64,000 nucleotides of DNA from Planctomycetota bacterium (GTDB lineage Bacteria; Planctomycetota; Phycisphaerae; UBA1845), in contig JAKQDH010000069.1 of NCBI GenBank assembly GCA_029558835.1, forward strand, positions 1-64,000, given 5' to 3'. The notes below the pieces were generated by a model that was not told the DNA's origin, made no database searches, and worked only from the letters and a program-made list of their open reading frames with translations. Shown piece after piece: positions 4,048 to 27,755 of the stretch. Made by a program: the position numbers and the translations under genes. The first letter of the stretch is position 1, and each line of letters begins with the position of its first letter.

Positions 4048-5682
4048 TTAGGTTCCCTCTGAGGAAGCTACGGCAGCGCGGTTCAGGATCGGCACGCGGC
4101 AGCGCCGGCCACGCAACCTGCTTAGCGCCCGGGCCTTCCACGCGCCGGGTACGACCCAGCGCCAGTAGACGGCCACGGTAACGACGCCGCCGGCGCCGGC
4201 TCCCGCCATAAGGGCGACAGGGGGCGTGTCCGGAAAGCCCAGGCGGGCAAGCACGAGGCAGCAGGTGAACGGCAGGCCCGCAAGCACCGGTCCCGGCACG
4301 ACCGCCCGGAGGTAATCTTGCCAACTCAATTGCAGCACGCGACATGCGTAGGCGGGCAGCACGATGCCGCCGTTTACGGCAATGGGCAAAGCGAGCGTAG
4401 CGGCCGCGCCCACGGTGCCACCTTGCAGCGGACCCAGGACGATCAGGCCGGCCGCGATGCCGATACCGGCCGCCACGAGTTCGAACACGGCAGGCCACCC
4501 GTGCCGCCCCATGCCCAGCAGGATCGAGAAGGCACCGAGTTGCGGCACCGCCAGCAGGTGCGCCACCGCCAGCACCCCCAGCACGAGGGGCGCTTCATAG
4601 CTGGGCCCCATCCAGACGTTCAGCAGGGGGCCGCCCATGACCAGCAGCAGCACGGTCGCCGGTAGCGTTACGTACAGGCCGTACTTCGACGACTGGGTCA
4701 GCAGGCGCTGCAAGGCCGCGGTATCCGCCCGGGCATCCAGGGCGCTGCTCGCGGGAATGAACACCTGGGCGTACTGCTTGACGAAGCGCCAGAGATGCAT
4801 CACCAGGGCCCGCTGGCGGGCGTAGACCGCCAAGACGGCCGGCCCCAGAAAGAAGGCTACGAACAGGCTGTTGACCTGGTACAGGCCGGTGCGCGCCACC
4901 GTCTGCAACACTGCGCGAAACCCGAAACCGATCACCTCGCGCGCGGTACTCCAGTGGCATGACGAAACGGAAAGCCGCAGGGGCCGACAGAGGCGCCGCG
5001 CCGCGACCCAGTTTGCAACCCACAGCACGATCTCACCCAGCAGCGTTACCCACGCCAGGGCAACCAGCGACTGGCCCATGATGAGCAAAGCGCCCATCAC
5101 GACGAGCACGACTAGGTCGCGTACGCCACGCAGGAGGTTCAGGACGTCATAGCGCTCATAACCCGTAATGACGGCGTTGAACACGCTCGCGGGCATCTGC
5201 ACGGCCGCACTGGCGCACAGCAGGAAGACGACCCAGCGTGCGGTGCCGTAGAGGGCGGGGTCGGTGTTGGGCAGAAACACCTGGATGCAGGCGGCGAGCA
5301 CGGCCGACGCCGCCAGGCCAAGCACGGCCCCGGCGCTGAGCAACGCCAGACACGTGCTGGCGACATTGTTGAGCGCCGCCCAGTCCTGCACGGTGCGCAG
5401 GCGGGCGACGTAGCGCTGCACGGCCGAAGCAATGCCCAGCGCCAGCAGGCTGATGTGAAACACCAGCGACCAGCCGAGGTCCCAGATGCCCAGTAGTTCC
5501 TGTCCCTGGTGCCGGTCCAGCAGACGCGGGAGCACGAAGCCGGAGATCAGCACGAGCAGGTACCAGACCCAGTTGGCGACCACGTTACGGGCAATGCGGC
5601 CGCCGCCGGTTGACGACGCCGCCGGGGCGGATGGCGCGGCGCGGCAGCCGGCCTGCGATTTGGGTGGATCAGACGTAGCCAT
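4048..5682 (-). CDS. Wzx-like polysaccharide flippase (MOP superfamily)
   Basis: This 544-residue integral membrane protein is an alternation of hydrophobic segments and short charged loops, with about 12-14 predicted membrane spans. Its early section NVVANWVWYLLVLISGFVLP resembles the first helix of Wzx/MurJ-type flippases. The usual Wzx length is 400-520 residues, so this one is slightly long because of a Ser/Ala/Pro-rich cytoplasmic N-terminus of about 35 residues. It should flip the lipid-linked repeat unit across the inner membrane. Its start overlaps the end of the sulfotransferase gene by 14 bp, which suggests translational coupling, and the Wzy-like polymerase is two genes upstream. 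Together these define a Wzx/Wzy-type pathway. Confidence 0.85.
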   Translation of the reverse strand: MATSDPPKSQAGCRAAPSAPAASSTGGGRIARNVVANWVWYLLVLISGFVLPRLLDRHQGQELLGIWDLGWSLVFHISLLALGIASAVQRYVARLRTVQDWAALNNVASTCLALLSAGAVLGLAASAVLAACIQVFLPNTDPALYGTARWVVFLLCASAAVQMPASVFNAVITGYERYDVLNLLRGVRDLVVLVVMGALLIMGQSLVALAWVTLLGEIVLWVANWVAARRLCRPLRLSVSSCHWSTAREVIGFGFRAVLQTVARTGLYQVNSLFVAFFLGPAVLAVYARQRALVMHLWRFVKQYAQVFIPASSALDARADTAALQRLLTQSSKYGLYVTLPATVLLLVMGGPLLNVWMGPSYEAPLVLGVLAVAHLLAVPQLGAFSILLGMGRHGWPAVFELVAAGIGIAAGLIVLGPLQGGTVGAAATLALPIAVNGGIVLPAYACRVLQLSWQDYLRAVVPGPVLAGLPFTCCLVLARLGFPDTPPVALMAGAGAGGVVTVAVYWRWVVPGAWKARALSRLRGRRCRVPILNRAAVASSEGT

Positions 5683-6606: not shown

Positions 6607-8067
6607 TCAGGCGGGCGGACGCGCTCCGAGTCGGTTGAGGCCGGGGGCCCCGAGGTCGTAGAAACGCCGGGAAGGCGCTGAGGCCGCGTTCGCCGCAGGC
6701 CGCCACGCGACCTTGCTCTTCTCTACAACCACGCGCAGGGCCAGGGCCCAGAGGCACCAATAGGGGAGCGTGCTCTGGGTCGGATAGAAACTCTGGCAGC
6801 CCAGAGCCGTAACGAGCAGCACCGTGATCGTGGCCAGACCCATGCCGCCTACGCCCGCAAGGACACGGTCCGTTCGGTCGCGGAAGAGGCGGAGCGTAAG
6901 AACGAAGATGCCCACGTGCAGCACCAGAACGGGCAGCAGGCCGACGACGCCCATGTCCAGGAGGACTTCCAGATACGCATTATGCGGATGGGTCGGGGCG
7001 GACCCGCCTTCCAGCCAGCGATCCCGCACGGCGGTCCGTTGGCAGGCGACGCCCCCAAAGCCCAACGCGGGGGCCAGCGTGAACTGTTCAAAGGCAGCCG
7101 GCCACAGGTCCGTGACCCGGCCGGCCGTTACCTGGTCCCAGTCGTGCGCGTCCTGGGAAGCGGGTGCTCCGGCTGACCAGCCCATGCCCAGGCGCGCGGG
7201 CACGGCCGGTACCGCGGCGCACACGACAATCACCGTCAGGGGCAACGCCAGCAGGAGCTTGCGCCAGCGGGCCAGGCCTAGCACGACCCCGGCGGCCGCG
7301 AAGCCCAGGTAGCTGCCGCGCGAATGGCACAGGATCATGCCCAGGAACATCGCGCCGGCCGCCCCCAGCAACAGCGCCCGCACCTGCCAGCGACGCACAC
7401 ACAGACAGGCAAACGTAAGGGTTGCCCAGAACGCCCCGGCCAGCAACATGGACATGTCAATGGCCATCAGCCCCACGTCCCGGTCGATGCGATGCCGGTA
7501 CGCCATGAACTCGGATGTTGAGCCGGTGGCCAGGGAGCTGAGCGGAACGTGCCTCATCACGCAGATCGCGTAGACAAAGGCAGCCAAGATTGCGACGCCG
7601 GCGACGGCCAGCAGCCGCCTTCGCGTCCGACAACCGTCGAAGAGCATCAACGCCAGCACGATGAACTTGACGCGGTTGATGAGAAACTCACCGGTGAAAC
7701 CGAGGAAACCGGGGCCGCCCTGCCCCGGTTCGTCGTCCGCACCGCCGGCGATGGCCTCGAGGTCCAGCACCGCCCGGACGTAGGCCACGCCGATGAGAAA
7801 CACGAAGATGGCAAGCGTCACCGTGACCAGCCGTGGCACATCCCAGGGACGCTGAGCTGCACGCCGGTCCAGCCACCAGCCGAGGACGGTGACTACGAAC
7901 AGGAGGTTCCAGGGATTGAGCCCATTGATGCCCAGCAGATACTGCGGGAAGTCCTGCCGCTGCATGAAGACGGAGAGGAAAACCAGGGCGCAGGCGGGGA
8001 CGAACCAGTTGCGCCAAGCCCAGACGCCCAGCGTCACGACAACCAGCCACAGCAGGTAGACGCGCAT
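6607..8067 (-). CDS. O-antigen ligase/polymerase-like membrane protein (Wzy/WaaL type)
   Basis: The 486-residue protein has about 11-12 membrane segments. It carries two hallmarks of the O-antigen ligase/polymerase family: the short motif CHSRGSYLGF in a membrane-loop boundary near the middle, and the large periplasmic loop ending HPHNAYLEVLLDMGVVGLLP, where the HNxYLxxLxxxG pattern is characteristic. In this setting it is most likely the Wzy polymerase that joins flipped repeat units in the periplasm, although ligase and polymerase cannot be told apart from sequence alone. It begins 6 bp after the GT-C-like gene and ends 11 bp before the sulfotransferase ATG. The C-terminal tail is Ala/Pro-rich and cytoplasmic. 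Confidence 0.85.
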   Translation of the reverse strand: MRVYLLWLVVVTLGVWAWRNWFVPACALVFLSVFMQRQDFPQYLLGINGLNPWNLLFVVTVLGWWLDRRAAQRPWDVPRLVTVTLAIFVFLIGVAYVRAVLDLEAIAGGADDEPGQGGPGFLGFTGEFLINRVKFIVLALMLFDGCRTRRRLLAVAGVAILAAFVYAICVMRHVPLSSLATGSTSEFMAYRHRIDRDVGLMAIDMSMLLAGAFWATLTFACLCVRRWQVRALLLGAAGAMFLGMILCHSRGSYLGFAAAGVVLGLARWRKLLLALPLTVIVVCAAVPAVPARLGMGWSAGAPASQDAHDWDQVTAGRVTDLWPAAFEQFTLAPALGFGGVACQRTAVRDRWLEGGSAPTHPHNAYLEVLLDMGVVGLLPVLVLHVGIFVLTLRLFRDRTDRVLAGVGGMGLATITVLLVTALGCQSFYPTQSTLPYWCLWALALRVVVEKSKVAWRPAANAASAPSRRFYDLGAPGLNRLGARPPA

Positions 8068-11286: not shown

Positions 11287-12772
11287 GGGCAGCGACCTCC
11301 ACCTGACCTTGCCAGCCGAAATGCGAGCGAAACGCCAATGCGGGACCTGCTATCTCTATTGCGCGCCGGTTCCACCGCGACTCGTTGGACCTGATGCACA
11401 CCCCTTCGGCCGGGAAATCGACCAAAGGCAGCCCGTGAGCCGCCAGCGCCTCGCGGAGCATTGGGATCCGACCGTAATCGAAACCCATGAGCCGGGCGCA
11501 GGCAAGGTCCACGGCCACCGGGTTGAAGCCCGCGACAACCACGCCTGCGTCCTTGGCGGTGGCATCGAGCGGGCCGTTGCCTTCCCCGGCGGTGATGCCG
11601 TCAACCACGCTGAACCAGCGCCGCTGCGGCTCGGTGTGGAGCGTGCCCTCCGCGTCGGCGTAGAGCAGGATGCGGTTCAGGTCGAGCACCATGCGCCAGG
11701 CCGTGTCGTTGCCGTACCAGTTGCCCGAGCGGACCGTGGCGACGTTCGTGTCTCCGAACACGCTCTTGCCCAGTGCCTTGCACGGGCCGGCCAGCAGCGC
11801 GCGCACGGGACCGAGGCGGGAAAACACCTGCTTGAAGCCGGCCACGGTCCGCTGTTCAAGACGCTGCTTGAGGCCGTTGCGGTGAAACTGGTCACCACCC
11901 TGGGCGGGCGTTCCCTCCCGGTGATGGGGTAGCCAGTTCTTGTTGCCGTTGATGCCGACGAGGTTCTTGAGGTTGACGGTAATCCCCACCTTCTTGTGGG
12001 TCTTCAGTTTCGGCACACTGATGACACAATCCGCGGCCAGGACCGTGCGCGATATCAGGTACTCGTGCAAGTCGCCGCGATGGTGCTGGCGAAGCTCGGC
12101 CGTGTCGTACTCGGCACCGTAGAGACGGTCACAAAGAGGACCGAGAGTGTGGAATGCCGATCGCTCGCCGAGGTTGACCCGGACGTAGCCGGCCGGGTCC
12201 CCCGGCAGAGGCCGGTGACCGACGATCACACCGTCGATCTTGTCCGCCCGCTCCGGACGCAGGTCATATACGTTCAGGGGAACCGCGCCGCACCGGGCGT
12301 AGAACGCCTCGAGTTCGTCGAGACCAGCCAGCCTGCGGATCCGCGCGAAGTCGGCGTCGTTTTGCGGAGCGTCGGCAATGATGATACGACCACGACCGGC
12401 AAGTGCTATGTGCACATAGTCGGCCACCGCCCGCAGGATGGAGCCGTGTGTGATGGTGCAGTTGCCATCGCCGTCGTGGGTCTCCCTGAAGTCGCGGACG
12501 AAGTTCGGCTTGAGCACCACCGTGTCGCCGGGTCGGACGATTCCGTCCAGGGGGTTCCACTCCGGCGTGTCGAGATGTTGGGCATCCAACCCCAGCAGAC
12601 GCAGCGCGGACCGCACCGCCTCGTAGGCGGGATTCGGCACGCCGGCGATGGTGGCGGCGTCGAACGGGTACTCAGGGTAAAGCGCGTCCGGCGAGTACGG
12701 AGGTTCGGGGCCGTACGCCGAGCACCCCGCCGCCACGGCTACCTCAGGTTGTCGCAGCAAGTTGACCGTCAT
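11258..12772 (-). CDS. DUF362 domain protein
   Basis: The 504-residue protein carries the DUF362 signature in VISVPKLKTHKKVGITVNLK, followed by NLVGINGNKNWLPHHREG. Near the N-terminus are a Pro-rich stretch and VVLKPNFVRDF, the usual opening of this family. DUF362 proteins have no settled reaction; some resemble iron-sulfur or nucleotide-binding enzymes, but no ferredoxin-type Cys motif is visible here. The ATG at 12772 (MTVNLLRQPEV) is chosen because residues further upstream are a frame-shadow of the preceding glycosyltransferase gene. It overlaps that gene by 29 bp and the PaaK-like gene by 29 bp, so three genes are tightly coupled. A role in modifying the polysaccharide is inferred from context only. 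Confidence 0.75.
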   Translation of the reverse strand: MTVNLLRQPEVAVAAGCSAYGPEPPYSPDALYPEYPFDAATIAGVPNPAYEAVRSALRLLGLDAQHLDTPEWNPLDGIVRPGDTVVLKPNFVRDFRETHDGDGNCTITHGSILRAVADYVHIALAGRGRIIIADAPQNDADFARIRRLAGLDELEAFYARCGAVPLNVYDLRPERADKIDGVIVGHRPLPGDPAGYVRVNLGERSAFHTLGPLCDRLYGAEYDTAELRQHHRGDLHEYLISRTVLAADCVISVPKLKTHKKVGITVNLKNLVGINGNKNWLPHHREGTPAQGGDQFHRNGLKQRLEQRTVAGFKQVFSRLGPVRALLAGPCKALGKSVFGDTNVATVRSGNWYGNDTAWRMVLDLNRILLYADAEGTLHTEPQRRWFSVVDGITAGEGNGPLDATAKDAGVVVAGFNPVAVDLACARLMGFDYGRIPMLREALAAHGLPLVDFPAEGVCIRSNESRWNRRAIEIAGPALAFRSHFGWQGQVEVAARDDEVGTVS

Positions 12773-15242
12773 GCGCGTGCGAGCCTGGAGGCGGGCCCTT
12801 GAGAACGCGGTAAAGCGCGATGAACTCGGCGGCCACGGCCGGGTGGTCAAAGCCGCGCACCAGCTCCCTGCCGGCAGCAGCCAGCGCCGACCGCCGCTGC
12901 GGGTCATCAAGCAACGCCCCCACGGCGCGGGCGAGTGCCGCCGGGTCATGGGGAGGAACGAACACACAGTGTCTGCCGTCTTCCAGCCAATCCGCGAGGG
13001 CCCGCAAGCGCGTGGTCACGACGGGCAGGCCGGACGCCAGGGCGTGGAATACCGTCATGGGCATCCCCTCCTGGTGATACGTGGGAAACACCAGGAGGTC
13101 GGCCTCGCGGTACGCACCCAGCGTCTCCTCCTCCGGCAGGTAGCCGGTGAACGTCGTACAGCCTTCGAGGTTCAGCCGGCGACAGAGTGATTCCGCGGCC
13201 GCCCGCTCCGGGCCGTCGCCGACGAACACGGCCTGCACGTCGTGTCGCTCGCGGATGGCCGGCAGGGCCGCGATGACGTCCGTCAGGCCCTTGGCAGGTA
13301 TGAAGCGGGCAATGAACAGCAGCAGGGGCCTGTTGGCCGGGAGTCCGAAGCGTAGGCGGAAGGCCGTGGGTGATTCGTAACGCGACAGGTTCAGCGCGTT
13401 CTTGGCGACCAACACGCGACAATTCGGAAACCGCTGCAGGAACGCCACCCGCTCTTCGCGGGACAGCACGGCCACGCCGCTGGCGCTGCGTACCACGAGT
13501 GCCTGGAGTGCGCGCCACCACGGGTTCGCAGTGCCCAGGAAGATCAGATCGCTGCCGTGGAACTTGAGGAGCACTCGCTGCCGCAAGAGACGCGCCAGCG
13601 GGATGAAACACACATCGCGAAGGACACCCTTGCGGTCGAAGGCGGAGTTCAACTGGATGAGGTCAGGCCGGTGCAGGACAATCAGGTACGGGAAACGCAG
13701 AAGATCGGCCAGCCGGCCCGTCAGACGCCGGCACGTGCTTTCCTCCGGCGTGCGCGCGCCGTACAGGAAGAACGGCACTTGCAGCCCCCGGGCAACGAGC
13801 GTGTCGCGCAACAAGTAAAGATGGGACGGCGGCCCGCCGCGCACGCGGCGGTCCGGCAGGGCCATGAGCACCCGAAGTGGCCGGCCGTTGCGCGGAGCGG
13901 CTTCGACGGCAAGCCCCGGTACCAAAGATGTCGCCCCGTGGCACTCCGGTGCTGCTGAACCGCGTGCCGTGCCCTTCGGCGTCGAGCGCCCGCGACCCCT
14001 GCCGGGACGCGCCTTGCCAAGGCTTCCGCACTTCTCGGCCCACGCGCGCAAGTAGACCTCACCCGTTTCCTGGGCGAGGCGAGCAATGGAGAACCACGTT
14101 GCGGCCCACTCGCGCGCGGCACACCCCATGGCGCTGCGCCAGGACTCCGACGCCAGCAGCGCGCACGCTCGCTCACAAAGAGCCTCAACGTGGCCGACCG
14201 GCACGAGGAAGCCGGCCCTACCGTCCGGCACGATGCGGTCGTTATCCGCCACCTGGGTGGCGAGCACCGGCACACCGCACGCCATGGATTCCAGCAGCAC
14301 GTTGGGCGTCCCCTCGCGGAGCGACGGCAGGACGGTCAGGTCGCAGGCCCGATACACGCTCGGCATGTCCGCACAGGCGCCCAAGAAGTGGCAGCAATCG
14401 TCCAGCATCATGCTGCGCACCAGCGCCTGCATTGCCCGGTGGTAATCACCTGCTCCCTGTTGGTTGTCACGTAGCGGCTCGCCTACGCAGAGAAAGCGGG
14501 CGCCGGGAAAGCGTTCGCGGACGCGCGCGGCAAGGCGAAAGAAGTCCGCATGGTTCTTCTGCCGCTTGAACGTGGCGACCATGCCCACGACGGGCCCGCC
14601 CGGCGGCAGGCCGAGCCGCAGCCGGGCCGCCGCCCGATCACCCGGCCGGAACCGCACGCAATCCACGCCGTTGTAGACGACGGCGATACGCTCCGGATCA
14701 ATGCCCAGCCGGCGCACGTTGTGCCGTTTGCCGGCGTGCGAGTTGGCGATCAGCACGTCGAACCACTGGCTTGTCACGCGGAAGCCAATCCGGTGCAGCC
14801 ACGGGGACTCATAGTCACAGTTGCGTTCCGACGCCACGACCACCGGCACGCCGGCCAGTTGGGCGGCCGTGCGGACCGCCATCTCCGCGTCGAAGAGGAA
14901 CGCATGGGCAATGTCGATGTCCAGCACACGCATCAAACGCGCCAGGCGCCACGTCAGACCGACGTCGAACCGACATCGCTTGGGAAGCACGTGCAGCGTC
15001 GCCACCCGGGCATCCAGCCCCTCGGCCAGCGGCACCACGCTGGACAGCGAGCATACGTGGACCGCGAAGCGCCGCGGGTCCAGGTGGTTGGCCAGTTGCA
15101 CAACCTGGCGCTGTGCACCACCGTGTTCCAGACTGCTGATGACCAGCAACAGGCGCAAACGGTCCCCGTTGGGCAGCGTGTCACCGGAGAGGCTGTCCGG
15201 ACAGGGCGTCCGCGGTGGGTCGATTGGCTTGTAAACCGACAT
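12744..15242 (-). CDS. Tandem GT4-GT4 glycosyltransferase fusion
   Basis: The 832-residue protein holds two complete GT4 modules joined by a Gly/Arg/Ser-rich linker at about 400-445. The first opens with LLLVISSLEHGGAQRQVVQL near residue 28, contains VVYNGVDCVRFRPG, and has an intact EX7E motif in LREGTPNVLLESMACG. The second opens with LRVLMALPDRRVRGGPPSHL and has LLLFIARFIPAKGLTDVI, but its EX7E reads EGMPMTVFHALASG, with His in place of the second Glu. The true start is the ATG at 15242 (MSVYKPIDPPRTP); the open frame further upstream is Arg/Gly-rich and shadows intergenic repeats. One polypeptide probably adds two consecutive sugars, or the second half is regulatory. Confidence 0.85.
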   Translation of the reverse strand: MSVYKPIDPPRTPCPDSLSGDTLPNGDRLRLLLVISSLEHGGAQRQVVQLANHLDPRRFAVHVCSLSSVVPLAEGLDARVATLHVLPKRCRFDVGLTWRLARLMRVLDIDIAHAFLFDAEMAVRTAAQLAGVPVVVASERNCDYESPWLHRIGFRVTSQWFDVLIANSHAGKRHNVRRLGIDPERIAVVYNGVDCVRFRPGDRAAARLRLGLPPGGPVVGMVATFKRQKNHADFFRLAARVRERFPGARFLCVGEPLRDNQQGAGDYHRAMQALVRSMMLDDCCHFLGACADMPSVYRACDLTVLPSLREGTPNVLLESMACGVPVLATQVADNDRIVPDGRAGFLVPVGHVEALCERACALLASESWRSAMGCAAREWAATWFSIARLAQETGEVYLRAWAEKCGSLGKARPGRGRGRSTPKGTARGSAAPECHGATSLVPGLAVEAAPRNGRPLRVLMALPDRRVRGGPPSHLYLLRDTLVARGLQVPFFLYGARTPEESTCRRLTGRLADLLRFPYLIVLHRPDLIQLNSAFDRKGVLRDVCFIPLARLLRQRVLLKFHGSDLIFLGTANPWWRALQALVVRSASGVAVLSREERVAFLQRFPNCRVLVAKNALNLSRYESPTAFRLRFGLPANRPLLLFIARFIPAKGLTDVIAALPAIRERHDVQAVFVGDGPERAAAESLCRRLNLEGCTTFTGYLPEEETLGAYREADLLVFPTYHQEGMPMTVFHALASGLPVVTTRLRALADWLEDGRHCVFVPPHDPAALARAVGALLDDPQRRSALAAAGRELVRGFDHPAVAAEFIALYRVLKGPPPGSHAHDGQLAATT

Positions 15243-15367
15243 GGCTACGGCGGGCCGCCGCTTGCACAAGGCAGCCCCACATCTCTGAGCATCCCCGACC
15301 TGCCCCCGCCCTGTCAGGGAGGGGCAGGGGGAGGGTCCGCTGCCAGCGGCATTCCCCGTCACCCTAT

Positions 15368-15390
15368 CCTCTCCCCCCGAGGGGGAGAGG
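15368..15390. repeat. Hairpin of the CCTCTCCCC family (intergenic)
   Basis: A perfect 10-bp stem with a 3-nt CGA loop (arms CCTCTCCCCC and GGGGGAGAGG) lies between the WecG-like gene and the double glycosyltransferase gene. Similar stems occur at 46350-46450 and 50733-50755. There is no T tract, so a Rho-independent terminator is not supported; it may instead stabilise or process the polycistronic message. Confidence 0.6.
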
Positions 15391-15439
15391 GGTCCTGCCA
15401 GGCGCGCTAATCGTCCGGGGTCGCCCGCGGACGGATCCG

Positions 15440-16213
15440 TCAGACCGTTTCCGGCGTGCGACTCCGGGCGCAAAGCTCCTTCAACACCAGCCAGCAGAAG
15501 ATGGAGTTGCTCACCAGGTACCGACGCCACATCCGCCCCGGCTCCTGCACAACGCGGTACAGCCACTCCAGTCCCAGACGCTGCCAGATCCGCGGCGCAC
15601 GCTTGACCTTGCCGGCCATGACGTCGAACGACCCCCCGACGCCATGGCACAGGGGTACGTCAAGTTCGCCATTGAAACGCGCGAGAAACTCCTCTTTGCG
15701 CGGCGAACTCATGGCCACGAACAGCATGTCCGGTCGGGCCGCGCGGATCGCGTTGGCCACCCCCGTCTCGTCCTCGCTCTTGAAATACCCGTGGTGCTGC
15801 CCCGCCACCACCACACCCGGGTAGCGTGCGTTGATGCAGCGTACCACCTCCGCGAGCACTTCCTCCGTTGCCCCGAGACAGAAGACCCGCCAGCCGCGCT
15901 CGCTCCCGCGTTCCAGTAGACGGTACATCAGGTCGATGCCCGTGACGCGCTCCGGCAGCGACCGGCGCAGCAGCCGGGCCGCCCAGACCACGGAAATGCC
16001 GTCCGCGAGAATCATGTCCGCGGTCCGCACCGCCTGGTCGAGACGCGGGTTCTGTCGCATGCTCACGATCTTCGCGGCATTCACCACACCGATCAGCAGA
16101 CGCCGGCGCTGGGCGATGACGTCCTCGGCGATCGTGAGTACGTCCTGCATGGTCAAGGCATGGACGGGAAGGCCGAAGAGCGTCCGTGTCGGCCAGGCGT
16201 TATCGCAAGTCAT
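15440..16213 (-). CDS. WecG/TagA/CpsF-family glycosyltransferase
   Basis: This 257-residue protein fits the GT26 family (N-acetylmannosaminyl- or UDP-ManNAcA-type transferases acting on polyprenyl-PP-sugar). Diagnostic segments include VVNAAKIVSMRQNPRL, ADMILADGISVVWAARLL, ERVTGIDLMYRLLERG, VFCLGATEEVLAE, the GYF loop YPGVVVAGQHHGYF, MLFVAMSSPRKEEFLARF and HGVGGSFDVMAGKVKRAP, in family order. It should add the second sugar to a lipid-linked primer made by the polyprenyl sugar transferase encoded upstream. The ATG at 16213 is fixed by a 4-bp ATGA overlap with the stop of the preceding gene. The protein acts at the cytoplasmic membrane face. Confidence 0.9.
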   Translation of the reverse strand: MTCDNAWPTRTLFGLPVHALTMQDVLTIAEDVIAQRRRLLIGVVNAAKIVSMRQNPRLDQAVRTADMILADGISVVWAARLLRRSLPERVTGIDLMYRLLERGSERGWRVFCLGATEEVLAEVVRCINARYPGVVVAGQHHGYFKSEDETGVANAIRAARPDMLFVAMSSPRKEEFLARFNGELDVPLCHGVGGSFDVMAGKVKRAPRIWQRLGLEWLYRVVQEPGRMWRRYLVSNSIFCWLVLKELCARSRTPETV

Positions 16214-17394
16214 GAGCCCGAATCCTCCGTGGCGGAACCTGCCGCCGGCCACGCCTCCGCCCGCGTTGCCGGCCAAGCGTACAGCAGCCATCCCATTTCG
16301 TACGGTCGCGTTTCGTAGTCCACGCAGCCGGGAGGAAACAGAACATCGGCCCCCGGCAGGCGCCAGGCCGGGTGCAGACGACTCAACACCGCCTGTGCCT
16401 TGCGCACCACCTTCGCCGGTTCGCGGCGCGCAACCTTGCGCCAAACGACGTCGGCCGAGGCGTCGATCAGCGAGCCCCCCAGTTCCGGGGAATGCCCCAA
16501 CCACCCCAGACCGCCCGCCGTGGACGACTGGTGCCGGGCACCACCGGCGTCCTCGAGGGCAAACAAGGCCATCGGGGCCATCGCCTCCTGGTGCACGGCG
16601 TACACCGGATACTCTTCCACGATGTGACCCGTCCGCACGTCGAAATGCCACCACCACTGCCCCGCGGGGCCCTGTAGCTGACACATGCGGTCGGCCGCGT
16701 GCCCGGCAACGTCGAGCGCCTGGGGGTGTCGCGCGGCTTGGGAGTACAGAGACAACGCCTGGATGGGGTAGACCAAGTCGGCGAAGCAACTGATGTGGGC
16801 CCGCCAGCGCACCGCCTGCGCCGCGTCCGGCCAGTGTGGAAACAGTCCCGAGCGCGGCTGGTAAGATGCACGCAGTCGCTGCTCCAGCTTCGCCGCGTAC
16901 TCCTCCGCGCCTGGCAGCAACCCGCCGGCGGACAAAGCGCTCAGTACCCACGCGAACTCCACCGTCGGATACGAACCGTGCGCCGGGTCAAACGCCAACA
17001 CGCGACGCCAGGCAGCCTCAACCCCGCCATGACCCCATGCCCGCAGGCACCACAGCGTCAACGCGACCTCGCCCAGATCACTCATGGCGTCCACTTCGGC
17101 CGCCAGCGTGTCGGCCACCTGCTGCGGAGTGTGGCCGTGCAGCACCTGTTCAGACGCCGCAGCCTCTTCCCCGACCAACCCGAGCAGCACCATGGCCGTG
17201 TAGCGTCGGCTGACGCCCTCCAGCACGTCCTGACCGTTCGGCCGGCGCAACCGGAACGCGAAGCAACGCCGCTCCGGCAGGTACATGCGCCGCAATGCCC
17301 GCAGCGCCAGCCGGCGCAGCTCCACGGGCAGCGCCGCCACGCTGGTAGGCTCCGGGCCAACGACCGCCGTTCTGGCTCTCAACATCGTGCTCAT
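16210..17394 (-). CDS. Alpha-toroid-like protein of unknown function in the polysaccharide locus
   Basis: The 394-residue soluble protein has repeating helical segments rich in Ala, Leu and Trp (for example MSDLGEVALTLWCLRAWG, SYPTVEFAWVLSALSAGG, AHISCFADLVYPIQALSLYS, QWWWHFDVRTGHIVEEYPVY). These look like an (alpha/alpha)n toroid as seen in six-hairpin glycosidases, lyases and terpenoid cyclases. No signal peptide is visible. Its last codon overlaps the WecG-like start (ATGA), showing translational coupling. The ATG at 17394 follows a GGTGGG stretch; a TTG at 17442 would add 16 residues. A glycan-processing role is suggested only by the fold impression and neighbours. Confidence 0.6.
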   Translation of the reverse strand: MSTMLRARTAVVGPEPTSVAALPVELRRLALRALRRMYLPERRCFAFRLRRPNGQDVLEGVSRRYTAMVLLGLVGEEAAASEQVLHGHTPQQVADTLAAEVDAMSDLGEVALTLWCLRAWGHGGVEAAWRRVLAFDPAHGSYPTVEFAWVLSALSAGGLLPGAEEYAAKLEQRLRASYQPRSGLFPHWPDAAQAVRWRAHISCFADLVYPIQALSLYSQAARHPQALDVAGHAADRMCQLQGPAGQWWWHFDVRTGHIVEEYPVYAVHQEAMAPMALFALEDAGGARHQSSTAGGLGWLGHSPELGGSLIDASADVVWRKVARREPAKVVRKAQAVLSRLHPAWRLPGADVLFPPGCVDYETRPYEMGWLLYAWPATRAEAWPAAGSATEDSGS

Positions 17395-17764: not shown

Positions 17765-18988
17765 CTACCGAGGCTGGGCAGCCTGCGCATTAAGCGCTTG
17801 CAGGGCGTTGTTGCGCAGCAGGTACCCGAAGGGATCGTAGAGGTCCTGCATGGAGCCCTGGCTGGCGCCCGCGCTGCGCTCCGCGTCGCTGTTGAGGAAC
17901 TCGATGGCCTGGGCGTTATAGTTCACGCCGGCCGTCGCGCTCACACCGGCACGGAAGAAGATGTTGCGGTTGACCCAATCCTGGATGCGGGTGCCCGTCG
18001 TGTGCGGGACCCACAGAATGTCCCCGGCCGCCAGCATGATGTTCGGGTCTTTGCCCTTGGTGATTCGGTCCAGGTTCAGCTTGACGTGCGCGTCGCTGCC
18101 GTCGGGCATCCGCCGGATGAGCGTCGCCTCCCGCGGCGTGACGTCCGTGCGCAGGCCGAGCCCGGCCGCCAGTGCCTGCAATACGCTCATCCGCACGCCC
18201 TGCGGGTAGACCTGCGGCCGCGGCGCGTTGACCAGCCCGCCGACGAACACCGTGTTCGGGGTCACCGCTTGCACGGTCAAGACGTCCCCCGCCTCGAGGG
18301 GAGGTTGTGCCAACGCCTGTCGTACCCCCTCAGGCGTCGTGAGGTCCAGTATCACGTTTTCCGCCGGCTGACGCAGACGTCGCAGCCGCACCTGACCGGA
18401 CGCTATGTCGGAGACCAATCCACCGGCCTGTACAATCGCGTGGAAGACATCGCGCTCGGTGCGTCGCAGCGGCACCAGACCCGGCGACGTCACCGCCCCC
18501 AGCACCAGCACGTTGGTGGCCGCCGGGTCGATCAGCTCCACGTGCACCGCGAGGTCCTTGAGCACCGCCGGAACGTACGCCTCAAACAAGGCCGCTTCCA
18601 CGTCCGGAAGCTCGCGGTCGGCCACCTGCACATTGCCCGCCAGCGGCAGGTGCACCACGCCCTGCCGGTCCACGCGCACGCGCAGCGGTGGGGGGGAGGT
18701 CGTCTGGTCGGCACCCGTCAGCCACACCGCCAGCACGTCGCCGGGGCCGACGCGATACGGCCCCAGGCGCTGTTCCAACAAGGTCTCGGCGGGTTCACCG
18801 GCAGGCACTTCGACCGCCGGGCCAGGGGCCTGGGCAACCCGTTCCTGCATGCGCAGAAACTCGTCGAGGCCCATGCGGTGATCGCTGCAACCGACCACCG
18901 GGGCGATCACAGAGAAGCTCAGCATCAGGATCCCACAAGTGCGTACCCTCTGCCCCCGCCGGCTGATTCTGACTACACTGTTACTCAT
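17765..18988 (-). CDS. Wza-like polysaccharide export lipoprotein
   Basis: The 407-residue protein has an N-terminal signal with a lipobox, SVIAPVVGC, making Cys34 the likely lipidated residue. A polysaccharide-export domain begins near YRVGPGDVLAVWLTG (about residue 75), followed by two SLBB-like beta-grasp regions, first around TNVLVLGAVTSPGLVPL and then around NTVFVGGLVNAPRPQVYP. The C-terminal 80 residues differ from Wza and lack an obvious amphipathic barrel helix. It should form or help form the outer-membrane channel for the polymer and work with the BY-kinase encoded upstream. The ATG at 18988 is chosen because it yields the signal peptide; the upstream open frame reads through a dispersed repeat. 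Confidence 0.88.
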   Translation of the reverse strand: MSNSVVRISRRGQRVRTCGILMLSFSVIAPVVGCSDHRMGLDEFLRMQERVAQAPGPAVEVPAGEPAETLLEQRLGPYRVGPGDVLAVWLTGADQTTSPPPLRVRVDRQGVVHLPLAGNVQVADRELPDVEAALFEAYVPAVLKDLAVHVELIDPAATNVLVLGAVTSPGLVPLRRTERDVFHAIVQAGGLVSDIASGQVRLRRLRQPAENVILDLTTPEGVRQALAQPPLEAGDVLTVQAVTPNTVFVGGLVNAPRPQVYPQGVRMSVLQALAAGLGLRTDVTPREATLIRRMPDGSDAHVKLNLDRITKGKDPNIMLAAGDILWVPHTTGTRIQDWVNRNIFFRAGVSATAGVNYNAQAIEFLNSDAERSAGASQGSMQDLYDPFGYLLRNNALQALNAQAAQPR

Positions 18989-19090
18989 GAGTAGGGCGTC
19001 TCCCAAGAACACCATCTTCCAGTCGTCTTCTGGTCGCCGAATTGCGCCGTGGCCACGCGGTGCCACCGACGACCCGACGGTATGAGGCTG

Positions 19091-19237
19091 TAGGGCCAAG
19101 TGCAGCGCCGCCATGTGTTCCCTTCCACACGGCTGCTGCCCAGGCATGCCGGCTTGCCTGCCGGCCGGCAGGCGCGTTCGGGTTGGGCATGCCAGTGTGC
19201 CTGTTTCCCCGTTGTATGGTTCTGTTTCGCGGCTCGT
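19091..19237 (+). repeat. Dispersed repeat family 2 (copy)
   Basis: This copy lies in the 18989-19335 gap between the sugar transferase and export genes. It has the block GGCCAAGTGCAGCGCCGCCATG at its left end and GGGTTGGGCATGCCA, then GTTTCCCCGTTGTATGGTTC, at its right. It aligns block by block with 61228-61371. The terminal blocks are mutually inverted (CATG-GCCAAG versus CTTGGG-CATG). No gene is seen elsewhere in this gap. Confidence 0.65.
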
Positions 19238-19335
19238 CGAGGCAGTAGCGTCGACCCCCGCGGCCGACGTGAATGCCGCCACCCGCACCGGCCTCTCGGG
19301 TTTCCGGCCCGGCCCCGCGGTTCCTCGACAGGTTG

Positions 19336-21141
19336 TCAGGCCTCGCAGACCCCCTCGCTAACGCCGGCGCGCTCCGCGGCGCCAGGGAGGAACCAGCGTC
19401 GCGGCAGGCTCCAGCGCCCGCCGGCAGTCACGACGGTGGCGGCCAGAATCTTCAGATCCAGCCAGAAGGAGAAGTTCCTTATGTAGGCCAGATCATAATA
19501 GATCCACTCGTGGAAGTCGCCTTGGCTGCGGTCCTCGGAGCGGCAGACCTGCCAGAGGCCGGTGATGCCGGGCGGCACGGCCAGTCGGGCCCGCCGCCAA
19601 GGCACGCAAATCTGGTTCTCGCGGAACGGCGACGGGCGGGGACCGACCAGACTCATATGACCCAGCAGCACGTTGAGAAGCTGCGGCAGCTCATCGAGGT
19701 TGGTGCCGCGCAGCCACCGACCTACTCGGGTGACCCGCGGATCCTGCCGCAGTTTGAATTGCGGACCGTCCACGTTGTTCTGCTGGTACAGTTCACGCTG
19801 GCGCTGGTGCGCGTCAGCCACCATGGTGCGGAACTTCCAGCACGGGAAGTCCTTGCCCCCACGCCGTTCCCGCCGATGGGCGAAAAGCATCGGTCCAGGA
19901 GAATCCAGCTTGATGACGATTGCCACCGCGGCCAGCAGCGGCGCCAGCGCCACCAGGGCCGTCGCCGCGAAGGCAACGTCAAGCGCTCGTTTGGCGACAA
20001 AGTGCAACGACCGTCCACCACCAGGGCCCTGCCCGACGCGATCCGGCAGTGCCGCTTCGGCGGCCCACAGGGATGCGCCTTCCGGACCGGCCCCCTGGGC
20101 ATCAGCGGTGACGGGAACCGCACTCCCGTCTCCGCAAACCAACGACTGCCTGACGGCCGCACCCGCCGGCACGCGACTGCCGGGCGCCACCACGCACTGC
20201 GCCAGAGTCGCTCCTTCGCCAACGCAACTGGCGGCACCGACGACGGTCGGGCCGACAACCGTCGCGTTGCGCTCGACTCGGACCCCGCATTGGAGCACCA
20301 GCGGCCCGATCAGACGGGCGGTCGCATCGACAATGCAGTCCTGACCAATCACCAGTGACTCGCGGGCGGTCCGCGCCTGTCCGCCCTCTTGGCCGACAAG
20401 ATCGCCGCTCAGCACCGCCTCATTGAGCCCGAGAAGCCCGGTGACGCAAGTGAGGTCCGGCAGATGCACGGGCACGGCCACGTCACGACTGAGAACACCG
20501 CGTGAGGCCAGCAGCAACCGCAGTTCCGCCAGCGCCGCGAAGTTCGCGTCGGTCAGCGCCAAAGCGGGCGCCATCGACAGAAAGACGCCGTCGCGGGCCG
20601 CCTCCGGCCAGTTGGCCACGTGGTAGATGCGCTGCACGCGTTGCACACAACCACCGCCGTCCACCTGCACCTGCTCACGCGCGCACGCCGCATCGGCAGG
20701 CACCGCCACCCAGTGCGTCGCGGCCCGATACTCCGTTCCCTCGCGCAGCATCCGCTCCAGATCGAGCGTTGCCGCCGGCCAGCGCGCGGAGTCAACCAGC
20801 AACACGTGGTCGGCAGGTTCGCAGCCAGCAAAGACGCGGGGAACCTCGTCCACCGTCACAACTTGCACGGGCCGGCCGACGTCCGCGCCCACGGCGGCCG
20901 CATAGTCGCTACCGGCAGCAAAGGTCGGCACCACGCACACTTGGTGTTCCGACGCCGGGCGTCCCGCCGCCAGTTGATCCACCAAGTGGCTTAACAGCGA
21001 CCCGCCGCCCACCGGCATGGTCAGCAACGAGGCTGCCTTACCCCCGGCGAACAAGTAGGCAGGACGATGGTCCAGCACGACCAACAGCAAGGAACAGACT
21101 CCCTCGTCCGCCAGCAGGGCGGGAGCCCCCGCGCGATTCAC
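19336..21141 (-). CDS. Nucleotidyltransferase-like/beta-helix region fused to a polyprenyl-phosphate sugar transferase
   Basis: The 601-residue protein has three parts. Residues 1-240 resemble a divergent NDP-sugar nucleotidyltransferase core without the GGxGTR loop. Residues about 265-345 form hexapeptide repeats of a left-handed beta-helix (VIGQDCIVDATARLIGPLV, then VVGPTVVGAASCVGEGATL). Residues 380-601 are a complete bacterial sugar transferase (PF02397-like) with the membrane re-entrant start KRALDVAFA, the motif CWKFRTM, NLDELPQLLNVLLG and SLVGPRP. The last part should start the lipid-linked repeat unit by moving a sugar-1-phosphate to undecaprenyl phosphate. PglC-type partners are usually single-domain or have a four-helix N-terminus, so this architecture is unusual. 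The start codon is GTG. Confidence 0.82.
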   Translation of the reverse strand: MNRAGAPALLADEGVCSLLLVVLDHRPAYLFAGGKAASLLTMPVGGGSLLSHLVDQLAAGRPASEHQVCVVPTFAAGSDYAAAVGADVGRPVQVVTVDEVPRVFAGCEPADHVLLVDSARWPAATLDLERMLREGTEYRAATHWVAVPADAACAREQVQVDGGGCVQRVQRIYHVANWPEAARDGVFLSMAPALALTDANFAALAELRLLLASRGVLSRDVAVPVHLPDLTCVTGLLGLNEAVLSGDLVGQEGGQARTARESLVIGQDCIVDATARLIGPLVLQCGVRVERNATVVGPTVVGAASCVGEGATLAQCVVAPGSRVPAGAAVRQSLVCGDGSAVPVTADAQGAGPEGASLWAAEAALPDRVGQGPGGGRSLHFVAKRALDVAFAATALVALAPLLAAVAIVIKLDSPGPMLFAHRRERRGGKDFPCWKFRTMVADAHQRQRELYQQNNVDGPQFKLRQDPRVTRVGRWLRGTNLDELPQLLNVLLGHMSLVGPRPSPFRENQICVPWRRARLAVPPGITGLWQVCRSEDRSQGDFHEWIYYDLAYIRNFSFWLDLKILAATVVTAGGRWSLPRRWFLPGAAERAGVSEGVCEA

Positions 21142-21306: not shown

Positions 21307-23691
21307 TCAGCCCGGCTGCTGTTCCCCAGCGGGTGCCGCCAGGACGCGCCCGGCCCCCACGACCGACGCACTCGCTTGGGCCTGGTGGCGACCGTACCCG
21401 CCGTAGCCGTAGCTGCCGTAGCCATACTGGCCGTACCCGTAGTGCGCCCCGCTCAGAACACCCACCAGCACCGTGCCCAGGAGCCGGCCGCCCACGACGT
21501 CCAGATCAGCATACGCCCGCAGTACCTCCGACCGCCGACAGTGGGACGAACGCAGCACCATCAGGATGCCGTCGGCCTGCGTGGCCAGAATGCGGGCATC
21601 CGCCACCGGCATCACCGGAGGGCTGTCCAGGACCACGTAGTCGTAGCGGCTACGCCAGCGCTTGAGACACCCGGCGAACACTCCGTTCGCCAGCAGCTCC
21701 GGATTGAACTCTCCCGTCGTCCCCGCCAGCATGATGTCGAGACCCGTGCACTCATCCGGACGGACAACCTCGTCGTCCTCCGCCATGCCCGTGAGGATGG
21801 CCGCTAGGCCCGGCGCGGACGGATCCAGCCCCAGGCGCTCGGCCAACGCCGCCTGCCGCAGGTCGGCTTCCACCAGCAGCGTTCTCTTGCCCAATTGGGC
21901 AAGGCTCCGGGCCAGGCTCAGCGCGACGCTCGTCTTACCCGCGCGACTGGAAGAACTGGTCACCAGCACCACCTGGTCGCGGGCAGCTTCCAGCCGGCGC
22001 AGCAGGGCGGTACGGACCATGCGCATTCCTTCGATGACCGCGGAACTGTGCTCCCAGAGTTGGTGGTTCTGCCCGGCCGGCAACGGTGGAAGCTGCCCCA
22101 GGAACGGCACCTGCACAACCTGCTGCACGTCCCCCAACTCGCGGATCCGCGGGTCCAGCAGGGCACGCACGTAACCGGCCGCCAACGCCAGGCAAAGCGC
22201 CGCCCCGAGGGCGAGTCCGCTCAGCAGGGGCCGGCGGTCCCGGAACGGCTCCGTAGGCGCCACGGCCGAGGCCGCTATCGAAATGCGTGCCGGGGCCTTC
22301 GCCTCAATCTCCAGGTACTCCAACCGCGTGCGCACCGCGTCGTACAGCTCGCGTGTGTACCGGATCTCGTCATCGTAGTGGGCGATCTTCTTGGCAAGTT
22401 CACCGGCCTCCGTCAGGTTTTGACGCTGGCGATCCACGTCCTCACGCAGCAAGCCGAGTTCCCGTTCCCGGAGCCGCAGCGTGCGCTCCGCCTGGGCTAG
22501 CGAGGTCAGTTGCGCCGCGGCATCACTCGCCAACACCACGCCGCCCGCCTTGCCGGCCGCCTGCAATGCCGCTTCCCGGTCGTGCAGCAGTTGCTCCTGG
22601 TGATCCACGTCCGCCTGGAGCTGCCGAATTCGCGGGTGTGATGACCCATACTGCTGCCCCGCGACCGCGAGCTGATGCCGAGCAGTCTGCCATGCCAGAT
22701 GCAAGGCACGCCACTCCGCATCCTGGGCAAAGGTAGGGTCGATGTCCTCCTGTTTGGCCCCATCACCGTCGGGCGGTGTCGCCTCGGGGCCGACTTCAGC
22801 GGCCGGCCGCAGTTCCTCCGCCACGAACCCGGCCAGCCCGATCTGACGCTGCAACTCGTTCGCCTTCGCCTCCAGCACGCTCAACTGGGTGGCCAACTGG
22901 GAACGCAGTTCCTCCGGGTCCAGCGTACCCAACTGCTTGCCCAGGTTGAACTTGCTCTCCACCAGTCCGTCGATTTCCTTCTTCAGGGCGGCCCGCTCCG
23001 CACTGAGCGTCTCGAAACGGTGTACATCGCTCTCCCGGTACGTTTCGTCCGTGAAACGCTTATAGGCGTCGACCACGGCGTTGGCGATGAGCTTGGCCTC
23101 GTGCGGCGAGCGGGCCGTCACCGACACGTCGATGAGCTCCGTGTCGCGACGAGGATGGACGGACAGCGTCTCCTCCAGACGCTCCAGATGGCTGGGCGGT
23201 TGGCCGCCCAGCATGGTGCGCAACGTACGCGGCACTTCCCGGTACCAACGCGTTTGCTGGACCTCGGGCTGGTCCAGGACCCGCTGCAACACGCGTGGAC
23301 TCCGCATGATGGACACTTGCGTGTTCAGAAACGACCGATACAGCGGCACCGTCCCCTTGTCTTCGGTGTCAAAGACGATGCGCGAGATCAACGGAGAAAC
23401 CCGCACCAGTGCCGTTGCCTGATAATGCGGCTCCAGCAACCACCAGATAAGCGGCACGGTTGCCCCCGCAACCAGTGTGAACACCCCCACGATCAACCAC
23501 TTGGCCTGCAGCAGCGTCGGCAAGGAAAACGCAGCGCGCGGCGCGGCCGCGCCACCGACCAGCGGTCCTCCGCCGCCGGCGACCGCCGGACTCGCCAGAC
23601 CGACGGTCTCCGTGCCCGCCTCCCCGGACAACACGATGCCGCTTTCGGCACTACCTGACGTCAGTTCATGGTCCTGTGGCTGATGAAACAA
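21307..23691 (-). CDS. BY-kinase/chain-length regulator (Wzc-like tyrosine autokinase)
   Basis: The 794-residue protein combines a Wzz-like region with two membrane helices (about 60-87 and about 495-520) and long coiled-coil segments between them (DYxxEQ-type heptads such as DVDHQEQLLHDREAAL), then a cytoplasmic ATPase. The Walker A is SSSSRAGKTS (579-588), Walker A' is LLVEADLR (about 605-612) and Walker B is YVVLDSPP (about 685-692). The C-terminus holds seven tyrosines in YGYGQYGYGSYGYGGYG, the cluster expected to be autophosphorylated. It controls polymer length and export with the Wza-like lipoprotein. The start is a TTG at 23691 behind AGGGAG. The next downstream gene is the sugar transferase, 165 bp away. 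Confidence 0.9.
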   Translation of the reverse strand: MFHQPQDHELTSGSAESGIVLSGEAGTETVGLASPAVAGGGGPLVGGAAAPRAAFSLPTLLQAKWLIVGVFTLVAGATVPLIWWLLEPHYQATALVRVSPLISRIVFDTEDKGTVPLYRSFLNTQVSIMRSPRVLQRVLDQPEVQQTRWYREVPRTLRTMLGGQPPSHLERLEETLSVHPRRDTELIDVSVTARSPHEAKLIANAVVDAYKRFTDETYRESDVHRFETLSAERAALKKEIDGLVESKFNLGKQLGTLDPEELRSQLATQLSVLEAKANELQRQIGLAGFVAEELRPAAEVGPEATPPDGDGAKQEDIDPTFAQDAEWRALHLAWQTARHQLAVAGQQYGSSHPRIRQLQADVDHQEQLLHDREAALQAAGKAGGVVLASDAAAQLTSLAQAERTLRLRERELGLLREDVDRQRQNLTEAGELAKKIAHYDDEIRYTRELYDAVRTRLEYLEIEAKAPARISIAASAVAPTEPFRDRRPLLSGLALGAALCLALAAGYVRALLDPRIRELGDVQQVVQVPFLGQLPPLPAGQNHQLWEHSSAVIEGMRMVRTALLRRLEAARDQVVLVTSSSSRAGKTSVALSLARSLAQLGKRTLLVEADLRQAALAERLGLDPSAPGLAAILTGMAEDDEVVRPDECTGLDIMLAGTTGEFNPELLANGVFAGCLKRWRSRYDYVVLDSPPVMPVADARILATQADGILMVLRSSHCRRSEVLRAYADLDVVGGRLLGTVLVGVLSGAHYGYGQYGYGSYGYGGYGRHQAQASASVVGAGRVLAAPAGEQQPG

Positions 23692-23768: not shown

Positions 23769-24881
23769 TCAGCCGAGAAGCCGGCGTCCCGTTACGTCAT
23801 GGCCGGGGCGGTCCGTCGGACGCGAGGTGCCGGGCCGGACGCCGCGCCAGTGCGCAAGCAACCGACCTACCCAGCCGTCGTGCCGCCTGCCCCTGGCCAT
23901 CCATATGGTCTCGCGCAGCACCAGTTCCGGCTCCACGCTTGCGCCGTCGGTGAGAACGCAGCGATCGACGAAGGCCCCCTGGCCGACAGACACCCGGGAC
24001 CACAACGCCGAACGACTAACCACAGCCTGGCCGGCCACGATGCAGCCTGCGCCGATGCTTGCGGGTCCGACCACCAGCGCCCCCGCTCGCACCTGCACGT
24101 CCGGCCCCACGACTACCGGCCCGAGCAGCTGGGCCGTCGGATCGACTCGGGCCGAACTGGCCACCAGCGCCTCGCCGATCCGCACGAACCCCGGCACCGT
24201 GCCGGGTCGATGCGTAAGACGGCTCACCACCGCGGCGTCAACTGCCAGGTACGACCGTGCGTCGGTCACCCGGACCAGGGCACCCGCCGCAACCGCATGC
24301 GTGGAAACAGGTACGCCCCGACGGTGCAACGCCGGCAGCAGTACCTCCTTGATGTCCTGATAGCCGTTCGGGCGAACCTCCGCCAGCGCGGCGCGGGAGA
24401 ACACGTACAACCCGGTCGGGGCGGGCACCCGCCCCGAGGAATGCGCGGAAGTAACCACTACCGTGGCCGCTGCGCTGCTCCCCGAGTGCACTGCCAGCAA
24501 CCTGGTCAAGTCCACATCTGGAATCAGGGTGCCGTCCACGACCACGAAGGTCCTGGCCGTACTGGCCAGTGCGGCATCCCGAGCACAACCGGCCGGCCCC
24601 CGCGGCATCACGTCCTCACAATAGTCCACGGCGATACCTTGCTTTTCCCCCGTGCCCAGGTGGGCACGCAGCACGGCGCTGTCGCTGTTGCCGCATACCG
24701 TCGCGCGCGTAATGCCCGCGTCACAGAGCCAACCCACGATGTGCTCGATCACCGGCCGGGTAGCCACCGGCAGCAACGGCCGCGGTGCCGCCTTCTCCAG
24801 GGCGCAGCTTCCCCAGGCGTGTACGCCGGCCAGGATGATGGCCTGCACGTCCTCCGACCGAACCGACGTGTGGTTCTGCAC
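23769..24881 (-). CDS. Degenerate NDP-sugar nucleotidyltransferase with C-terminal left-handed beta-helix
   Basis: The 370-residue protein has the nucleotidyltransferase core at 12-230 and hexapeptide repeats of a left-handed beta-helix at about 235-325 (for example LLGPVVVGPDVQVRAGALVV). Position 14-19 reads AIILAG and RPLLPVATRPVIEHIV follows at 34-49, but the usual GGxGTRLxPLT between them is replaced by VHAWGSCALEKAAP, so the catalytic loop and its Arg are gone. It may be an inactive regulatory homologue or may use altered chemistry. The start is a GTG at 24881 after a G-rich stretch. The BY-kinase gene follows 77 bp downstream, and the heparinase-like gene lies 141 bp upstream. A similar beta-helix block sits in the sugar transferase fusion. 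Confidence 0.75.
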   Translation of the reverse strand: MQNHTSVRSEDVQAIILAGVHAWGSCALEKAAPRPLLPVATRPVIEHIVGWLCDAGITRATVCGNSDSAVLRAHLGTGEKQGIAVDYCEDVMPRGPAGCARDAALASTARTFVVVDGTLIPDVDLTRLLAVHSGSSAAATVVVTSAHSSGRVPAPTGLYVFSRAALAEVRPNGYQDIKEVLLPALHRRGVPVSTHAVAAGALVRVTDARSYLAVDAAVVSRLTHRPGTVPGFVRIGEALVASSARVDPTAQLLGPVVVGPDVQVRAGALVVGPASIGAGCIVAGQAVVSRSALWSRVSVGQGAFVDRCVLTDGASVEPELVLRETIWMARGRRHDGWVGRLLAHWRGVRPGTSRPTDRPGHDVTGRRLLG

Positions 24882-27170: not shown

Positions 27171-27755
27171 CTACTCGATCACTTCCAGCAGTCCGGGATC
27201 AATCTCCACCTCGGCCGATTGGCCGAGTATCTGCACCGCCAGGTAAACGCGACACAATCCTCGGCGGCGCAGCACCGTCCCTTCCATCCCCCTCAGGCTG
27301 CCGCTCGTCACTCGACATCGCCGGCCACGCTGAATCCCCGGGTACAGGTCCATCGGTACCCCGCTATTGACGGCGCGATGAATCTGGCGCAGCTCGTGCC
27401 GCAGCCGCTCCTGGTCGGCCACCTCGATGACCTGAGCCACGCGGTGCGTTCGCAGGGTCGCTGCCCGCTCGTTGGACTCCCCACGCAGGAACAGGTACCC
27501 CGGAAACAGCGGCAATCTCACCGTCCTCGGTGCCCGCCCGCCGTAAGACCGTCTTGCCTCCACGAGGGGCAGGAAGTACGCGATGCGCAGCCGTTCAAGT
27601 TGGCCCGCCACCGTCTTCTCGTGCCGCGCCCGCGTGTGCACGACCCACCAGCGCTGCGCCGGACCCGGCACGTCGACGTCGCCAAACAGCTCCGCCGCCG
27701 CCGCCGATGCGGCGACTCGCACGTCGTCCTCAACGTTGACGCACTCGCTGATCAC
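27171..27755 (-). CDS. NusG/RfaH-like transcription antiterminator at the head of the cluster
   Basis: The 194-residue protein holds an NGN domain starting at WWVVHTRARHEKTVAGQLER (about residue 35), with LPLFPGYLFLRGE in the expected strand, and a C-terminal KOW motif in GRRCRVTSGSLRGMEGTVL (about 143-161). Residues 1-30 are an acidic/Ala-rich extension. Specialised NusG paralogues (RfaH, UpxY, LoaP) sit at the start of long polysaccharide operons and let RNA polymerase read through. This gene is the first of the minus-strand cluster, immediately upstream of the heparinase-like gene. The start is a GTG at 27755. No ops-like pause element was identified with confidence. Confidence 0.88.
   Translation of the reverse strand: MISECVNVEDDVRVAASAAAAELFGDVDVPGPAQRWWVVHTRARHEKTVAGQLERLRIAYFLPLVEARRSYGGRAPRTVRLPLFPGYLFLRGESNERAATLRTHRVAQVIEVADQERLRHELRQIHRAVNSGVPMDLYPGIQRGRRCRVTSGSLRGMEGTVLRRRGLCRVYLAVQILGQSAEVEIDPGLLEVIE

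Follow-up and report, generated by a model that had tools for sequence, protein, structure and literature searches.

Organization of the locus

The window, a stretch of 64,000 nucleotides from a Planctomycetota bacterium (contig JAKQDH010000069.1), contains a minus-strand gene for a protein in which a nucleotidyltransferase (NTase)-like domain is followed by a left-handed β-helix (LbH) and, after a linker, by an intact monotopic phosphoglycosyl transferase (PGT) domain of family PF02397 (Table 1). The initial annotation had described a degenerate NTase and a β-helix fused to a PglC/WbaP-type PGT, and both the PF02397 match and the predicted structure bear out this description. The frame contains no internal stop codon, and the missed stop between the domains that the annotation had considered is unlikely, because a single continuous frame is found in dozens of genomes. 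The GTG from which the residues are numbered is probably too early; fusion homologues start near residue 16-18, where a TTG codon (21090) is preceded by gaggga, which suggests that this TTG is the true start. Some fusion frames reach 800-1012 residues (G040:C222, G040:C167 and G037:C299) and may hold further domains.

Table 1. Positions of the fusion gene, its parts and the neighboring genes in the window.
Feature	Position	Strand	Remarks
UpxY/RfaH-type antiterminator, head of cluster	27171..27755	-	
Partner (P0002), stand-alone degenerate NTase-LbH protein	23769..24881	-	370 aa; PF00483 8e-9, LbH_EIF2B 3.9e-8
Wzz/Wzc-type tyrosine autokinase, between partner and fusion	21307..23691	-	
NTase-like-LbH-PGT fusion gene	19336..21141	-	601 aa counted from GTG
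Degenerate NTase-like (pyrophosphorylase-fold) domain, predicted	20392..21096	-	residues about 16-250; PF00483 unmatched, GxGTR loop absent
LbH (hexapeptide repeats)	20122..20382	-	residues about 254-340
Linker, low model confidence	20011..20121	-	residues 341-377; pLDDT under 50 at 338-380
Monotopic PGT domain (PF02397)	19426..19992	-	residues 384-572
Wza-type polysaccharide export protein (Poly_export, SLBB)	17765..19288	-	
WecG/TagA glycosyltransferase	15440..16951	-	gene probably begins near residue 246 of frame
Tandem GT4 glycosyltransferase	12744..15650	-	
Wzy_C / exosortase-associated O-ligase-like protein	6607..8067	-	
Wzx-like flippase (Polysacc_synt_3)	4048..5682	-	

The fusion gene is best explained as encoding the initiating PGT of a Wzx/Wzy-type exopolysaccharide cluster, the Wzy of which matches an exosortase-system model with a score below the cut-off. 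The N-terminal extension of the 503-residue WecG frame was considered as another fusion and dropped, as it probably lies outside the gene. A phenylacetate-CoA-ligase-like enzyme and a DUF362 protein are encoded inside the cluster (9853-12967). Between this ligase and Wzy lies a 587-residue protein (8074-9837) with many apparent membrane segments, which has no match in Pfam or NCBIfam and by eye resembles a GT-C type enzyme. An IS21 IstB ATPase fragment (2331-2762; model positions 97-236 of 238) is likely an insertion-sequence remnant in the cluster, and at the cluster's end an odd fusion (244-2100) combines weak formyltransferase similarity (136-256) with a following GINT1_N-like domain (312-516, 3.2e-39). 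The subtilase encoded at 28633-32127 contains seven FG-GAP repeats and matches dockerin weakly.

Domain structure of the fusion protein

The C-terminal assignment is unambiguous, with a PF02397 E-value of 8.5e-61 and 205 bits against a cut-off of 27. D483-E484 and the GPRP motif (P501-R502-P503), which we take to be the catalytic dyad and the PRP motif of monotopic PGTs, are invariant in all seven fusion homologues aligned, in agreement with the earlier statement that the sugar transferase domain (380-601) keeps its key motifs. By sequence, WbaP and PglC are the nearest solved structures, and they match the C-terminal part only, while the LbH weakly matches NTase-LbH proteins. In the model of the fusion a long helix spans residues 376-413; the PGT part is poorly modelled, though secure by sequence.

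The N-terminal part is less readily assigned. No Pfam family exceeds its cut-off in the 250 N-terminal residues, and PF00483 in particular is unmatched here and, with the limit set to E 10, in each of the seven family members, so the designation "nucleotidyltransferase-like" is insecure on sequence alone. LbH and hexapeptide models match at about residues 249-337 with scores below the curated cut-offs, and the hexapeptide and LbH_EIF2B models match all seven homologues. Of the three families named in the domain search that the initial annotation proposed, PF02397 was thus recovered, LbH at sub-threshold scores, and PF00483 was not.

The structure prediction that was proposed alongside it is more informative. 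An AlphaFold model built from seven sequences has a mean pLDDT of 57.9, with values mostly of 60-80 in the NTase-like part (under 50 at 148-184) and mostly of 80-91 in the LbH. Residues about 14-360 resemble NTase+LbH proteins (Foldseek E down to 6e-11), and the VIA comparison aligns 297 residues of the model with the GDP-Man pyrophosphorylase 7x8j (Z 19.6, rmsd 4.7 Å). The structural neighbors are GDP-mannose pyrophosphorylases, the GMPPA/GMPPB complex, eIF2B gamma/epsilon and ADP-glucose pyrophosphorylase, with Z values of 15.7-19.6 among the 50 matches listed. When the N-terminal part is modelled alone, the result is weaker (mean pLDDT 55.8, Z up to 11.3) and retrieves the same families, including GMPPA/GMPPB (7d72_E; 173 residues, 4.2 Å, Z 9.3). 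The predictions support an NTase fold followed by an LbH at the N-terminus. This predicted fold fills residues 14-360, where WbaP-type PGTs have a four-TM bundle and a PF13727-type domain; PF13727 itself is unmatched in the fusion at E 0.1 and in the seven homologues at E 10.

The partner protein, loss of catalytic residues and history of the fusion

The initial annotation had also noticed a degenerate nucleotidyltransferase with a β-helix two genes upstream, and both domains of this partner are recognized by profile models (Table 1). A close homologue of the partner lies on the same contig in 38 of the 41 fusions listed, always upstream on the same strand and at a distance of 118-3320 bp; the three fusions without it are on contigs of 4.3, 6.1 and 7.4 kb. 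The order partner, Wzc, fusion, Wza is found in four of six named loci (L021-L024), and in L025 and L026 the partner directly adjoins the fusion. At E 0.001 the partner has matches in 47 of 60 genomes, some of which are ordinary NTases or the fusion itself. A plasmid search with the partner returned 45 records, and the annotated ones among the ten listed are ordinary sugar-phosphate nucleotidyltransferases or NDP-sugar synthases.

To describe the active site, 35 partner-type NTase domains (20 stand-alone partners, four fused to PGTs and 11 further partner-like domains) were aligned with two canonical NTases from the genome that contains the window (L099 and L100) as controls. The Thr and the Arg of the GTR motif are kept in none of the 35 domains, and the catalytic Lys and Asp in one each; the controls keep all four residues. 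The partner and its aligned relatives therefore look catalytically dead. An invariant Arg occupies the site of the catalytic Lys in all 20 stand-alone partners, which also share a conserved PRGPAGC motif in the pocket region, and these features suggest a pocket that has been changed and has not merely decayed. In the family alignment of the fusion, the glycine-rich GxGTR loop is absent from the NTase-like domain, and this missing loop, as distinct from a residue-by-residue alignment, is the ground on which the domain of the fusion is apparently dead as well.

These observations bear on the suggestion that the fusion supplies the membrane enzyme with an activated sugar, that is, that a bifunctional protein makes an NDP-sugar in its N-terminal part and passes it to the PGT. 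The fold would be the correct one, the two reactions are consecutive steps, and bifunctional PGTs exist, as named in the available text of PMC10942596. However, with the GxGTR loop missing, PF00483 unmatched in the seven homologues, and the full catalytic set present in none of the 35 alignable relatives, including the four Pfam-recognized PGT fusions, we consider this explanation very unlikely.

The fusion is widespread in other planctomycete genomes, where the initial annotation had proposed to search for it: among the matches listed, 41 full-length copies occur in 31 of 60 related genomes, and the copies other than the window's own show 40-53% identity. The named relatives are metagenome assemblies of Phycisphaerae and other Planctomycetota. 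In two close fusion pairs, dN/dS is 0.09 and 0.07 for the NTase-like part and 0.06 and 0.09 for the PGT, and in one partner pair it is 0.05; these ratios are rough, since two of the three pairs have a high level of synonymous change. The fusion is under purifying selection, its NTase-like part included, and the low values for this part are unlike those of a dying remnant.

A tree was built from 61 PGT domains, of which 43 have an N-terminus known or suspected to be NTase-like and 18 are ordinary PGTs that were picked by hand as the outgroup and on which the root depends. The 43 form one clade (99/98) apart from the ordinary PGTs and divide into groups A (the type of the fusion, 23 members), B (4), C (9), D (5) and E (2), each a single clade, with C, D and E labelled by eye. 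The N-termini of types C and E are suspected to be NTase-like from weak profile matches or inspection. Type B consists of four proteins that combine a partner-like domain with the PGT (L059-L062; L062 and L061 also appear as L033 and L034), in which PF00483 is still detectable by Pfam, and is sister to all other NTase-like PGTs (100/99 for the rest). Compared directly by hhalign, the NTase-like domains of type A and of the partner give a probability of 3.9, which is not significant, and homology of the two at the sequence level is therefore not claimed. The link runs through intermediates: type D scores 81.6 against A and, with the LbH included, 98.4 against the partner, and type C scores 37.6 against A, 83.6 against D and 0.5 against the partner. 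The simplest reading is that an NTase-LbH protein was fused to a PGT once, after which the fused copy eroded and the separate copy was kept as the partner.

The LbH is undetected in the nine type C PGTs, which indicates that it is not indispensable. Proteins of the fused PglC-PglD type join an LbH sugar acyl- or acetyltransferase to a PGT, and the LbH of the fusion might be such an enzyme, with the NTase-like part as a structural remnant; in the model of the isolated N-terminal part, the LbH indeed also resembles PglD and LpxD structures. This alternative appears highly improbable, as the helix is only about 80 residues long, by sequence it best matches helices of the hexapeptide, eIF2B and GlmU types, and the PGT and its cluster persist in the type C relatives.

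Exosortase fusions and the possible role of the module

In nine loci outside type A (L058, L063, L064, L065, L068, L069, L070, L071 and L073), the partner is fused to a C-terminal exosortase. The exosortase domain was detected in all nine by a profile built for this analysis, and PF09721 matches the two proteins scanned with Pfam (1.5e-50 and 1e-54). C526, R571 and H592, presumably the catalytic residues of the exosortase, are invariant in all nine. The fused protein occupies the position that the stand-alone partner has in type A loci, a type C or D PGT lies downstream on the same strand in every case, and a Wzc gene lies between them in eight. At L074 the partner-like gene, exosortase, Wzc and PGT are separate genes in a row. 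Full-length partner-exosortase proteins occur in at least seven of 292 genomes of the phylum (with the best four candidates per genome scored) and in five relatives (G001, G008, G009, G011 and G018). This fusion is possibly the most interesting architecture met in the analysis.

The genes scanned in the window include no exosortase, and the exosortase matches of the same genome sit on other contigs (C187, C99 and C195). Among the matches listed, an exosortase lies within 5 kb of at least five of the 41 type A fusions; in the phylum sample, at least 22 of the best 34 PGT rows have one within 10 kb, all on the same strand. With few type A fusions near an exosortase, other lineages show the strongest link.

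PGTs act as gatekeepers of undecaprenyl phosphate, a scarce compound, and to our knowledge their regulation is poorly known. A dead NTase-LbH module at the position of the WbaP extra domains, together with a matched dead partner, most likely points to a hetero-oligomeric control unit. With moderate confidence we favor the explanation that the module stands in place of the four-helix bundle and nucleotide-sensing CoA-binding-like domain of WbaP-type enzymes and forms, with the partner, an oligomerizing and probably ligand-sensing unit for control of the PGT. The NTase-LbH modules of the two proteins would form a hetero-oligomer at the membrane, as in GMPPA/GMPPB or eIF2B gamma/epsilon, and PGT activity would be tuned by a nucleotide or NDP-sugar that occupies the former active-site cleft, so that the unit would gauge the supply of such compounds and gate the PGT. 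The pair probably senses or organizes the first step of capsule assembly.

We infer the oligomer, the ligand and the effect on the PGT by analogy with two systems. The extra domain of WbaP binds uridine nucleotides, and UMP, thought to act through it, inhibits the enzyme with an IC50 of 4.1 μM, according to the accessible part of PMC10942596; the non-catalytic GMPPA binds GDP-mannose and inhibits GMPPB, according to that of PMC11228364. The alternative role of sensor in the initial annotation fits better than the feeding of a sugar, given the position of the module and the GMPPA precedent, with a ligand that is putative.

The modules may instead be a pure scaffold that binds no ligand, oligomerizes the PGT and holds it together with Wzc, the partner and, in some lineages, the exosortase. 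LbH/NTase proteins oligomerize, and this role would agree with the GMPPA/GMPPB structures among the structural matches, with the loss of catalytic pocket residues, and with the two kinds of fusion, in which an exosortase is joined to the partner in some genomes and a PGT to a partner-like domain in others. We regard it as rather unlikely, since the strong constraint on the whole NTase-like domain and the new invariant pocket positions of the partner (the Arg in 20 of 20 and PRGPAGC) suggest, without proving, that a ligand is still bound.

The control unit favored here has partial parallels. Large monotopic PGTs such as WbaP and EpsZ likewise combine a C-terminal PF02397 core with an N-terminal extra domain, for which nucleotide sensing or regulator docking and dimerization are proposed in the available portions of PMC10942596 and PMC12802240; in EpsZ the domain is part of a regulator docking site by modelling (PMC12802240). 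In contrast, the fusion is unmatched by PF13727 and leaves no space for a four-helix bundle; it carries an apparently dead NTase-LbH module instead. A class of PGTs with fused domains is already known (Bi-PGT; O'Toole et al. 2021, as named in what is available of PMC10942596), in which a further domain is likewise attached to the PGT core, whereas the domain fused here lacks catalytic residues. GMPPA/GMPPB, eIF2B gamma/epsilon and ADP-glucose pyrophosphorylase share the NTase and LbH fold, and GMPPA also provides the likeness of a catalytically dead paralogue that acts as a regulator. These are soluble complexes, whereas in the present case a membrane enzyme carries one of the two copies, and neither copy looks active. 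In the open-access literature searched, which did not include the main PGT survey (O'Toole et al. 2021), no description of an NTase-like PGT fusion or an exosortase-nucleotidyltransferase fusion was found.

The neighborhood of exosortase and exopolysaccharide genes was noted by Haft et al. 2006, and disruption of EpsH left the polysaccharide unaffected, as stated in the accessible text of PMC1569441. Exosortases (EpsH/Xrt) are thus known to be encoded inside such clusters, whereas in the lineages related to the window the initiating PGT has a dead NTase-LbH partner to which the exosortase is joined in a single protein. It is conceivable, and proposed here only tentatively, that the dead-pyrophosphorylase pair physically couples the first exopolysaccharide step to protein sorting: the PGT-fused copy would dock with the partner copy, which in some Phycisphaerae and other planctomycetes would make up the cytoplasmic domain of an exosortase, and the NTase-LbH modules would thereby come into contact with the exosortase.

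Taken as a PGT, the fusion looks like an independent replacement of the regulatory domain by a retired NDP-sugar enzyme. The partner-exosortase fusion bears on a long-standing question, why genes for exosortases and for exopolysaccharides travel together, and the coupling, if true, would give a direct physical reason for exosortases living in exopolysaccharide clusters.
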